Source: an uncultured Clostridia bacterium
Lineage (GTDB): Bacteria; Bacillota; Clostridia; Christensenellales; CAG-917
Direction: 5' to 3'
DNA length: 64,000 nt
Assembly (NCBI GenBank): GCA_949286725.1
Contig: CASECZ010000001.1
Span: forward strand, 186,001-250,000
Shown: positions 59,273 through 64,000 of the stretch, one piece after another
Position numbering within the stretch: the stretch's first letter is position 1
How the letters are laid out: the number at the start of each line of letters is the position of its first letter
Made by a program: the position numbers and the translations under genes
Notes under the pieces: model-generated
Seen by the model: the letters and a program-made list of their open reading frames with translations, nothing else
Databases searched by the model: none
What the model was told of the DNA's origin: nothing

Positions 59273-60121
59273 TCAGACAAGGCGTATCCTCTGTCTGCCG
59301 TTGCGTTCTTCGAGTTCGGCAAGCAGATCGCACACGCGTTTGCCGTACAACGGATGCACTGCGTAAGGCGCAATCTCCGCAAGCGGGCGCAAAACGAAAT
59401 CGCGGTTCTGCATATCGGGATGCGGCAGAACGAGGTCGCCCTCCTGCCGCACTTCGTCGTCGAAAAACACGATGTCCAGGTCGAGAGTGCGGTCGCCCCA
59501 CCTCTTCTTTCGCACCCGTCCGCACTCATTTTCTATGCGGTGCAAAAGCGCAAGCAGGCTGTCCGCGGTGTGCAGGGTTTCAACCCGCAAAGCGGAATTG
59601 AGAAATTCGTTTTCGGCGACGCCGCCGTAGGGTGCGGTCGCCAAGCGCGTGCTCTCCGTGACGGAAAGGACGAGAGGGTCTGCGCGCAACATATCGACGG
59701 CACGCATCATCGCGGCGTCCCTGTCGCCGAGGCTCGACCCCATGGAAAGATAGGCGACGCTCCGCTTGACGCGGGCGGTGACGCCCACCCAGTCGAAGAC
59801 GCCTTTCATCGGCGCGTCGGGCTTTTTGACGGTGACTTCCACGCTGTCGGCGGAAGGATATTCGAGCATAATCCTGCGCGCCGTAACCGTTGCGAGATGT
59901 TCCAGCAGATTTTTGCCTTCCTGTCCGAAAACGGACTTTATCAGCTTGCATACGGCAGAATAACTTATCGTTCTGCCGATATCGTCGGAATTTGCCGCCT
60001 CGGTTATATCACATTGCAAAGCCACGCTCACCCAAAATCTCTGCGGGGTCGTCTTCTCTTCGGGGTTGACGCCGTGACACACGACGATTTCGTAATTTTC
60101 AACGAGTATGCTTCCTTTCAT
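59273..60121 (-). CDS. folK: Bifunctional dihydroneopterin aldolase / HPPK
   Basis: 282 residues: an N-terminal FolB domain (about 1-120) with EIVVCHGVNPEEK and ISYSAVCKLI, and a C-terminal FolK domain (about 122-282) with YLSMGSSLGDRDA, NEFLNSALRVET, GRVRKKRWGDRTLDLDIVFFDD and LPHPDMQNRDFVL. It makes 6-hydroxymethyl-dihydropterin and pyrophosphorylates it for FolP. The fusion lacks a long linker. GGAGGAAGCG precedes the ATG. Last gene of the folate operon, 13 bases after folP. Confidence 0.95.
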   Translation of the reverse strand: MKGSILVENYEIVVCHGVNPEEKTTPQRFWVSVALQCDITEAANSDDIGRTISYSAVCKLIKSVFGQEGKNLLEHLATVTARRIMLEYPSADSVEVTVKKPDAPMKGVFDWVGVTARVKRSVAYLSMGSSLGDRDAAMMRAVDMLRADPLVLSVTESTRLATAPYGGVAENEFLNSALRVETLHTADSLLALLHRIENECGRVRKKRWGDRTLDLDIVFFDDEVRQEGDLVLPHPDMQNRDFVLRPLAEIAPYAVHPLYGKRVCDLLAELEERNGRQRIRLV

Positions 60122-60134
60122 CGCTTCCTCCGTG

Positions 60135-60932
60135 TCATTTCGTCGCGGCGGGCAAGTCCCTGACCGAGGAGATGACAGCCAGGTTTTCCCTGACGTCGTG
60201 CACCCTCACGAACAGTATTCCTTCCCTTGCGGCGAACGCACTCGTTTCCATAGTGGCGGTAAGTCGTGTTTCGGGTTGACCGCCGAACATCGACTTGCGC
60301 GAAGTCCCGAGCAAAAGCGGATAGCCGAGCATGGAAAGTTCGCGATAGCGGTCCAGCAGTTCCCAGTCCTCGGCGTTGGAACGGTTGAAGCCTATGCCGC
60401 CGTCCAGAATTATGCCGTCGGCGCGAACGCCCGCGCGCAACGCTTTGTCGACCGCGGCGGAAAGCCCCGCCAGTTTGTCCGCCATAAGGTCGTCGAGCCC
60501 TCCGCAACGCCTGTTGTGCATTATGCACACCGCGGCGCCGTAACGCGCCACGGTCTCCGCCATGCCGTCCGCGGCAAGACAGTTGACGTCGTTTATCATA
60601 TCCGCGCCCGCTTCGAGCACGGCTTCCGCCACTTCGGGATAATAAGTGTCGACGGAAATCGGGCAATCGGTGGCGGCACGCACGCTCTCCACCACGGGAA
60701 GCACGCGCGACAGTTCTTCGAGCACGCTCACCTGCCCGCCGTTCGGGCGCGTGGACTGCCCGCCTATATCGATTATTTCCGCACCCTGTGCGACTGCTTC
60801 GAGCGCGCGTCGCACGCAATCGTCGCCGACTCTGCTGAACGGGTAAAAGGAGTCGGGCGTTGCGTTGAGAATCGCCATTACGTGCGTGCCCGTCGAAAAC
60901 TCTCTGTCGCGCACTCTGAAAACGCCGCTCAT
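60135..60932 (-). CDS. folP: Dihydropteroate synthase
   Basis: 265 residues. Joins p-aminobenzoate and dihydropterin pyrophosphate; the target of sulfonamides. Signature segments: [46 protein letters not shown] and [11 protein letters not shown]. Starts in an ATGA overlap with folE; GGGAGGCG upstream. FolP TIM barrel intact. Confidence 0.97.
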
Positions 60933-61534
60933 CGTTCGCCTCCCGCAAGCGTGAGCAACATATTGACTGTTGCGGCGTCGACGTCACCACGCACGGCGTA
61001 ACTCAACGTCTTGCAACCCGCTTTCTTGACCCCGCGTGCCGTCATACAGGTGTGCTCCGCCTCGACGACGACCACCACGCCTTTGGGCGACAGGTTGTCG
61101 AACACGGCGTCGGCAATCTGCGCATTCATTCTCTCCTGCAACTGCAAACGCGCGGCGTAGACGTCGACAACGCGCGCCAGTTTGGAAAGACCGACCACCT
61201 TGCCGTCGGGAATATACGCAATGTGCACCTTGCCGAAAAACGGCATGAGGTGATGTTCGCAAGTGGAAGAAAACGCGATGTCGCGTTCCACGACCAACCC
61301 GCTTCCGCTCTCGGCAAACGTTCTGGAAAGATGTTCCGACGCGTCGGCGGCGTACCCCGCGGTAAGTTCTTTCAGCATACGCGCCACCCTCGACGGCGTT
61401 TCGCGCAATCCTTCGCGGCCGACGTCCTCGCCGATTGCCGCAAGTATCTCGCACACTGCGCGTTCAATCCTCTCCGCGTCCACTTCGCGGACTTTTGCGT
61501 CCGTGTTTTCGGAAATGTTCTTTTCTTCGTCCAT
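60929..61534 (-). CDS. folE: GTP cyclohydrolase I (FolE, type IA)
   Basis: 201 residues. First step of pterin synthesis: GTP to 7,8-dihydroneopterin triphosphate. Zinc-binding Cys and His in [10 protein letters not shown] and [27 protein letters not shown] and [13 protein letters not shown] are also characteristic. Decameric enzyme in the cytoplasm. ATG at 61534 preferred to an upstream GTG because GAGGTG lies in front of it. 96 bases after folC. Confidence 0.97.
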
Positions 61535-61630
61535 ATTCACCTCGTCCGCCCGTCGGCGGCATATCCGACCGTTGCGACTTTCCGCCGCTCAGTATTGTTT
61601 GTTTCGGTTGAATTTTCTATCACCGTATTC

Positions 61631-63001
61631 TCATTTATCCGTCAGAGAGGAAAAGAGCGTGAGCGACCCGAACACGACCGTGCAATCGCACCCACCCGCA
61701 AGCGACCTCTCGACCGCGCTCTTCACGCCCCCGACCGCAGTCACGTCCGCGCAGGAGCGGACGGCTTTCACGGTGTCGGCAAGCGCGTTGCAATCCAGCG
61801 CGCGCGGCGAAACGGGCGTCACGGTGTATATCTCGTCAAACAGCGGCGCAAGCGTCTTTGCAACCGTTTTGTAGTCCTTGTCGGCAAGCACGCCGAACAC
61901 GGCCGAACGGTTCTTTCCGTCCGTGTAATCAATAAGTGCTTCGCGCAACGAACAGGCACCGTGCGGATTGTGTGCTCCGTCCAAAATCAGGGCTTTACCG
62001 TGCGGAATTGACACTTTATACGGCATTTTTGCATTGTCCGCTTCCGTAAGCATTTCGAAACGGACGCGCCATACGGCGTCTTTCAACCCTTTTGAAAGGG
62101 CGTCGTCCGATATCTTCCAGCCCTTCTCGCGCAAGGCTTTCACCGCCTCGATTGCAAGTGCGGCGTTGACCGTCTGGTGCCGCCCTTTCAAGCGCGCGAA
62201 ATACCGTTTGCCCTCGTATACGAAGTGCTGCCCGTCACCCGCGACCGTTACGTCGCTCACCTCTCCCGTCACTCGCGCGCCCGCTCTTGCAAGCACTTCC
62301 GCGGCGCCTTCTTCCTGCGGACAGGTTACGGCGAGGTCACGGATTATCGCGGCTTTTTCCTCGGCTATTTCGGCAATAGTGTCGCCGAGTAACGCACAGT
62401 GGTCAAGTCCTATGGGAGTTATGACGGCAAGTTCCTTATCGCACACGGCGTTGGTTGCGTCCCATCTGCCGCCCAGTCCCGTTTCCAGTACGCACACGTC
62501 GCACCCCTTGTCGAAAAAGGCGACCAACGCGACTGCGGTTTCGATTTCGAACGCGGTCGGACAAAAGTCCGTCGTGTTGTCGTGGGGCGAATAGGGCGCG
62601 GGCGAAAGCGTGCGGGTGCAGTTCTTCTGCGTGCCGTCGTCTTCGCTATGCGCGGTTGCCGCGCGGCGAGCGCGTTCGCGCTCTATCGCGTCGCGGACTT
62701 CGGTCATATACTTTGCCACGTCATCGTCGCAAAGAGGCTCCCCGTTCAGAAGGAAACGCTCGTTGTAGCAAAGCACGGAAGGCGAATTGTACGTGCCCGT
62801 CCTGTATCCTGCCGCGCGGAATACGGCGGTGAGCATTGCGCACACTGAGCCTTTGCCGTTGGTGCCCGCAACGTGCACGAATTTGAGTTTTCGGTCGGGA
62901 TTGCCGAGCAACGCCAAAAGTTCGCGCATACGTTCGATGCCGTAATCGGACCCTGCGCGTTCGATGCCTCGGATATAATCCAATGCTTCTCGGTAAAACA
63001 A
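61631..63001 (-). CDS. folC: Folylpolyglutamate synthase / dihydrofolate synthase
   Basis: 456 residues. Adds glutamate to dihydropteroate and folates. P-loop GTNGKGSVC, LETGLGGRWDATNA, and LDGAHNPHGACSL are the ligase hallmarks; a 40-residue insert (RARRAATAHSEDDGTQKN) near residue 140 is unusual. No ATG fits; the TTG at 63001 follows GGGAGG at six bases and gives the expected LFYREALDYI start, while longer upstream readings would run through the riboswitch. Heads folC-folE-folP-folBK. Confidence 0.95.
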   Translation of the reverse strand: MFYREALDYIRGIERAGSDYGIERMRELLALLGNPDRKLKFVHVAGTNGKGSVCAMLTAVFRAAGYRTGTYNSPSVLCYNERFLLNGEPLCDDDVAKYMTEVRDAIERERARRAATAHSEDDGTQKNCTRTLSPAPYSPHDNTTDFCPTAFEIETAVALVAFFDKGCDVCVLETGLGGRWDATNAVCDKELAVITPIGLDHCALLGDTIAEIAEEKAAIIRDLAVTCPQEEGAAEVLARAGARVTGEVSDVTVAGDGQHFVYEGKRYFARLKGRHQTVNAALAIEAVKALREKGWKISDDALSKGLKDAVWRVRFEMLTEADNAKMPYKVSIPHGKALILDGAHNPHGACSLREALIDYTDGKNRSAVFGVLADKDYKTVAKTLAPLFDEIYTVTPVSPRALDCNALADTVKAVRSCADVTAVGGVKSAVERSLAGGCDCTVVFGSLTLFSSLTDK

Positions 63002-63031
63002 AAAGCACCTCCCTAGAAGCACTTCTCGCAA

Positions 63032-63134
63032 ATGAAGCGGGAGTGAAAAATGCACCGCAAACCCGAAGGTTTTTCGTCCGTGAGCACCCCCCGTCTCATC
63101 GGCACTTAACGCGCAAGTTTCTACTACTTCCAAG
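63032..63134 (-). promoter_or_regulatory. Tetrahydrofolate (THF) riboswitch
   Basis: On the - strand: GGAAGTAGTAG, then the conserved GCGTTAAGTG, a CCGATGAG/CTCACGG stem, ACGAA, an AAACC/GGTTT hairpin with a TTCG loop, GCGGTG and finally a CTCCCGCTTC closing strand, in the order and spacing of the folT-type THF riboswitch. It lies between the promoter and the folC start. CACTCCC at 63039-63045 can pair with the GGGAGGTG binding site at 63006-63013, which suggests control of translation. Confidence 0.88.
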
Positions 63135-63158
63135 TAATATGGGGTAAACTGTAAATCG

Positions 63159-63187
63159 ATTGTACCACCGCGCGGCGGGAAAAGCAA
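63159..63187 (-). promoter_or_regulatory. Promoter of the folate operon
   Basis: On the - strand TTGCTT, 17 bases, TACAAT; it places the transcription start about 20 bases upstream of the riboswitch. Confidence 0.7.
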
Positions 63188-63450: not shown

Positions 63451-63539
63451 ATCCGTCGATTTTGTATTATTATAATTTTATTAAAGACTTTCGGGGGATT
63501 CCCTGCCGTCCGAGAGGGGACGGAATTTAAGGAGTGTAT

Positions 63540-64000
63540 ATGTCTTTCAATCTTCTCAGCGCATTTGTGGGGTTCAATCCCAACAACGGGCTGATGTACG
63601 GGCTTTTCGGGGCGGTCATTGTGTTTATCGTCGCGATGAGCGCATATTACATCATCGTTTCGGTGCGCCGCGCAAAAGTCATCGGAATGGATATGGGCAA
63701 AATAAAGAAAGTCGTCACCACCTCGGTGACGTTTTCCATTCTGCCCGCAATCGGCATCGGCGTAGGCGTCGTCACATTGATAGGCTCGCTCGGCATCGCA
63801 TTGCCCGCAATCCGACTTTCCGTCATCGGCTCTTTGCAATACGAGTCAATGATGGCGGACGGAGCCGCGTCCGCGCTTGCCGGCGATATGGAAACTTTTA
63901 TCGCGGGCAGTATTTCCGCAAAGGACTTCGTCACAATCGCAACGGTTATGACCATACCCATTATCACGGGACCTCTGCTCGTACTGCTCGGCTACAAGAA
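63540..64000 (+). CDS. DUF5058-type membrane protein (3' end cut by window edge)
   Basis: 153 residues visible and the frame is open at the right edge. At least three membrane helices; MSFNLLSAFVGFNPNNG start, SVTFSILPAIGIGVGVV, and RLSVIGSLQYESMMAD match the DUF5058 family as I remember it, which is of unknown function and possibly a transporter. AAGGAG precedes the ATG. A TTGATT-17-TATTAT promoter and a CCGTCC/GGACGG leader hairpin lie upstream. Confidence 0.75.
   Translation, partial: MSFNLLSAFVGFNPNNGLMYGLFGAVIVFIVAMSAYYIIVSVRRAKVIGMDMGKIKKVVTTSVTFSILPAIGIGVGVVTLIGSLGIALPAIRLSVIGSLQYESMMADGAASALAGDMETFIAGSISAKDFVTIATVMTIPIITGPLLVLLGYK

Follow-up and report, generated by a model that had tools for sequence, protein, structure and literature searches.

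A THF-I riboswitch heading a folC-folE-folP-folBK operon in an uncultured Clostridia bacterium, with a proposed OFF-switch mechanism

The window, a 64,000-nt stretch of DNA that we analysed over its full length, carries on its minus strand a THF-I riboswitch that heads a folC-folE-folP-folBK operon. This had been the main claim of a sequence-only reading of the same DNA, and the results presented here support it. We consider it likely that the riboswitch acts as an OFF switch for the operon, a model drawn from pairings conserved among the leaders of related genomes.

The THF-I aptamer and its promoter

Rfam 15 was run against all 64 kb of the window with cmscan. The THF-I riboswitch model (RF01831) matched at positions 63131–63033 of the minus strand, over model positions 1–99 of 99, with 59.9 bits (E = 5.1e-11; gathering score, 36 bits). 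This is a strong match on the strand named in the sequence-only reading, which had proposed such a search as a check. No other Rfam family reached its cut-off in the window, no second RF01831 copy was found in the genome, and the model was silent in 14/14 control genomes. The conserved segments pointed out before, GCGUUAAGUG, ACGAA and GCGGUG, are present and in order. The window RNA is able to form the closing helix P1, the three-way junction of P2, P3 and P4, and a pseudoknot between L3 and J2/1; the junction and pseudoknot are the features on which that reading had made its claim depend.

P1 pairs the switching strand GAAG (63127–63130) with CUUC (63037–63034) and is short, with four canonical base pairs; nucleotides 1 and 99 are G and A. 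Two non-canonical pairs lie within P2. In the pseudoknot, GGGGGU of L3 (63086–63091) is complementary to ACUCCC of J2/1 (63039–63044). Whole-leader folding energy was no better than that of shuffled sequences (z = −0.64).

An alignment of 35 leaders from the same family revealed compensatory changes in P2, P3 and P4. Pair 12-86 of P2 reads AU, GC or UA across these leaders, pair 17-81 UA or CG, and pair 19-79 CG or UA. In P3, pair 35-50 occurs as GC, UA or CG and pairs 36-49 and 37-48 as AU or GC, and pair 63-70 of P4 is CG or UA. Several other aptamer pairs are invariant in this alignment and uninformative either way. Among the 27 distinct leaders listed, the L3 sequence varies (GGGGGGU, GGGGAGU, GCGGGGU and AUGGGUU) while its match to J2/1 is kept, judged by complementarity only, and the L3:J2/1 duplex has a predicted energy of −6.6 to −10.9 kcal/mol. 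Because the core is invariant and the compensatory pairs are kept in 35 genomes, we infer selection on the aptamer structure. The RNA is predicted to sense tetrahydrofolate.

The RNA shares with THF-I a full-length RF01831 match, the three-way junction, the L3-J2/1 pseudoknot and a folate gene as target. It differs in its P1, which is GGAAG/CUUC here and GGCAG/CUGCC in consensus-like form, in its L3 and J2/1 sequences (GGGGGGU/ACUCCC), and in a gap of only 31 nt between aptamer and start codon. THF-II (the folE motif) is a folate sensor that precedes folE elsewhere among bacteria (PMC6800512, PMC9881143); it has another architecture and a Gram-negative lineage, and the window matches RF01831, not the folE motif.

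A promoter directly upstream of the riboswitch, as previously proposed, fits the sequence TTGCTT-17-TACAAT at 63187–63159, about 27 nt upstream of the aptamer. The −35 element is TTGCTT (63182–63187), and the −10 element TACAAT (63159–63164) is extended by an upstream TGG; the two are spaced by 17 nt. TTG-type elements with similar spacing occur in relatives, and a TGNTANNAT-like extended −10 motif stands at a similar distance in most of the same-family leaders read. In a generic consensus promoter scan the promoter fell below threshold, its −35 element having only three of six consensus bases. The generic promoter and terminator scan listed unrelated sites only, missing both this promoter and the linker hairpin described below.

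The linker hairpin and the proposed switch

The 31-nt linker together with the first codons of folC is predicted to fold into a 14-bp hairpin (−15.3 kcal/mol). Its 5' arm (GCGAGAAGUGCUUC, 63016–63029) pairs with a 3' arm (62998–63011) that holds a U5 run (63000–63004), whose last two bases lie within the UUG start codon, the start codon itself, and the Shine-Dalgarno sequence (SD) GGAGG of folC (63008–63012) apart from the SD's first base. Similar SD-covering hairpins were found in 35/35 leaders. Among 28 distinct leaders, core pairs of this sequestor were 99% kept, compared with 49–60% when one arm was slid, the core pairs being drawn from predicted folds, which biases the comparison in favour of kept pairs. 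One sequestor position reads G-U, A-U, C-G or G-C among the leaders.

The earlier statement that no U-tract terminator is visible in the leader does not hold as regards the U-tract, since the U5 run (63004–63000) directly follows the hairpin core. The hairpin, which has a long stem, many G-U pairs and a U-run that can itself pair, was absent from the output of the simple terminator scan. With a U-run behind the hairpin, combined control of transcription and translation becomes possible. Barrick and Breaker (2007, PMC2258182) describe a dual platform whose terminator hairpin carries the ribosome-binding site on its 3' side. Three features of that platform recur here: the SD in the hairpin 3' arm, a U-run directly after the core stem and a start codon within 10 nt. 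Unlike in that platform, the U-run here merges into the UUG start codon and is itself able to pair, and termination would be putative.

Three mutually exclusive pairings were computed in the leader. The P1 5' strand GGAAG resembles the SD GGAGG and is complementary to the hairpin 5' arm. When P1 is open, the linker segment UGCUUCUA (63014–63021) can pair with 63132–63125, that is, with UGGAAGUA, which includes the P1 5' strand; the 3' strand of this anti-sequestor shares bases with the sequestor 5' arm. When transcripts truncated immediately ahead of the SD were folded under forced P2 and P3, the P1 5' strand paired with the hairpin 5' arm, not within P1, in 34 of 35 leaders, G001 being the clear exception. 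Shuffled linkers matched both the anti-sequestor and the sequestor in 0–0.6% of trials. Random SD-pairing arms did as well with GGAAG in a median of 5.7% of cases, and because of this the random-arm test supports the anti-sequestor moderately, not strongly. Two other genera lend further support to the anti-sequestor. In genus g78 of family f5, GAAAG replaces the P1 5' strand and CUUUC the arm, so that the pairing is kept, with the gene order the same, and in genus g8 GGAAGUGU stands opposite ACACUUCC or GCACUUCC.

In the proposed OFF switch, P1 would be open when reduced folate is scarce, and its 5' strand within UGGAAGUA would pair with the emerging linker arm UGCUUCUA during transcription. 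Formation of the anti-sequestor would leave the SD free and let RNA polymerase continue. With THF bound, P1 and the pseudoknot would retain the 5' strand, leaving the linker arm to pair with GGAGGUGC-UUUUU instead, forming the sequestor and burying the SD and the UUG start codon; the U-run after the sequestor may also terminate transcription there. In THF-I, P1 is the switch helix that contacts the ligand-bound pseudoknot (PMC9881143). Forming P1 would take the 5' strand away from the anti-sequestor, so that the sequestor would be favoured, which yields the OFF logic. Such an arrangement would be expected to let folate feed back on its own production.

At equilibrium in the finished transcript, the sequestor prevailed both with and without forced P1, and median SD opening differed little between the two settings (about 0.5% versus 0.2%). 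A longer construct of the window gave a larger effect of P1 on SD opening (about 34% versus <1%), the outcome depending on the stretch folded. Since P1 has almost no bearing on the dominance of the sequestor once the transcript is finished, the switch decision is probably kinetic and made co-transcriptionally.

Control might act on translation alone, with the hairpin blocking only the ribosome and the U-run arising incidentally from the region around the UUG start. We see this sub-version of the OFF switch, which is not its opposite, as possible and on the less probable side. Two of the 28 distinct leaders have no U-run at all after the SD, and those of genus g3 (GGAGGUGCUUCGUG) retain the hairpin; in the window, the full hairpin has the U-run itself paired to its 5' arm. 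These observations favour translation-only control. Against it, a U-run of 4–8 after the SD is kept in 25/28 distinct leaders, the partner CUUCC in genus g14 of f5 belongs to a terminator-like hairpin that is separate from the SD (read by eye), and in G014 about 180 nt lie between the hairpin and the start of folC.

The sequence-only reading had instead let the aptamer 3' strand pair with the SD for translational control. Complementarity between J2/1 (CACUCCC) and the SD (GGGAGG) does exist in the window and in most relatives, at about −6.6 kcal/mol, and this part of the claim stands. As the main off-state the pairing is feasible but falls behind the linker hairpin in both strength and conservation; the hairpin is local and the more stable of the two in 26/27 distinct leaders. 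Where the SD context is CGAGG (G028, G030), J2/1:SD drops to −3.1 kcal/mol with the hairpin kept, and J2/1 is already required by the pseudoknot. Since the ligand would hold J2/1 in the pseudoknot, this version would be an ON switch in which folate raises its own synthesis, and we regard it as improbable. About equally improbable is that the aptamer has degenerated and lost much of its THF binding: the match scores 59.9 bits against up to 94 elsewhere in the order, RF01831 scores are lower in the folC-type group, and the P1 and J2/1 sequences of that group depart from those of folT-type members, yet 59.9 bits is well over the gathering score and the invariant core and compensatory pairs persist across the 35 genomes.

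Operon genes and the folate pathway

The riboswitch forms the 5' leader of folC (61631–63001, minus strand), which encodes a folylpolyglutamate/dihydrofolate synthase with a UUG start (TIGR01499, 305 bits). On the same strand follow folE for GTP cyclohydrolase I (60929–61540; TIGR00063, 202.6 bits; PF01227; start codon uncertain), folP for dihydropteroate synthase, which overlaps folE by 4 nt (60135–60932; TIGR01496, 240.6 bits), and a folBK fusion for dihydroneopterin aldolase/HPPK (59273–60121; TIGR00525 and TIGR01498, both above cut-off). FolC, FolE, FolP and FolB-FolK each exceeded the curated NCBIfam cut-offs and the Pfam domains concurred, and the previously read gene calls, in the order folC-folE-folP-folBK behind the riboswitch, hold.

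Describing this operon as complete went too far. The DHFR gene lies outside it, on contig C2, and a Chorismate_bind (PabB/TrpE type) domain was not found in the 97.8% complete genome by a search that was positive in 14/14 controls and that could miss fragmented or divergent genes. Apart from G015, the 24 other same-family genomes searched also gave no Chorismate_bind match. As no PabB/TrpE-type enzyme was found in the genome, the window species probably takes up pABA, and the other folate makers of the family without Chorismate_bind probably depend on external pABA. By this evidence, neither the operon nor the genome encodes the whole folate pathway. Upstream of the operon, a divergent gene on the plus strand (63534–63998) encodes a DUF5058 (PF16481) protein and extends past the window edge.

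Distribution and gene targets among relatives

RF01831 was present in 113/200 genomes of the order, in 47/60 close relatives and in 37/43 genomes of the window's own family; the genus member G002, scored as lacking the riboswitch, is a contig-edge artefact whose contig begins inside the aptamer. In 35 of the 37 riboswitch-bearing family genomes, the riboswitch is followed by folC. Behind folC lies folE in 32 of the stretches read. Two further stretches are too short to show it, folE of G025 was placed behind folC by a separate search, and G026 yielded no more than a fragment of folE, on another contig. In the family genomes, folP and folBK come next wherever the stretch reaches. In G010 (only 54% complete) and G017 the gene behind the riboswitch is a FolT gene, and no folE was found in them. 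The riboswitch also stands ahead of folT in related families; in all, about a dozen genomes outside the folC-type group have a FolT match immediately behind it. In the same-family genus g5, two genomes (G013, L131; G021, L132) carry folC-folE with no recognisable THF riboswitch in the roughly 260 nt upstream of folC.

FolE and FolT (the latter over cut-off) were both searched for in 41 genomes. FolE occurred alone in 24, FolT alone in 11, both in one (G050) and neither in five; the genomes are related, so these counts form a pattern and not a test. The pattern suggests a choice between folate synthesis and folate import. Most FolE-carrying relatives have the switch on folC and FolT-carrying ones tend to have it on folT, and on this basis a single sensor seems to track the folate source that each lineage has retained.

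Published THF-I targets in Firmicutes include folC, folE and folT (PMC9881143), and wider folate biosynthesis genes have been described as well (PMC6800512). THF-I sensing and its folate-synthesis targets are already known, and knowledge of the sensing is unchanged by the present find. What is added is an expression platform read from relatives and a lineage pattern of transporter versus synthesis targets; the 35 leaders allow the switching pairings to be read from sequence, something that few expression platforms permit. Tentatively, and with somewhat less than even confidence, we propose that in this Clostridia-like lineage the riboswitch moved from a folate-transporter gene to the synthesis operon and that P1 changed toward the SD (GGAAG beside GGAGG), one linker arm choosing between the P1 strand and the ribosome-binding site in a very short dual-control platform present in about 35 species.

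The leader of G014 (L068) has a hairpin with the SD-like sequence GGAGGG-CUUUUGC, far ahead of its folC. This platform may work by termination alone, or it may precede a short open reading frame.
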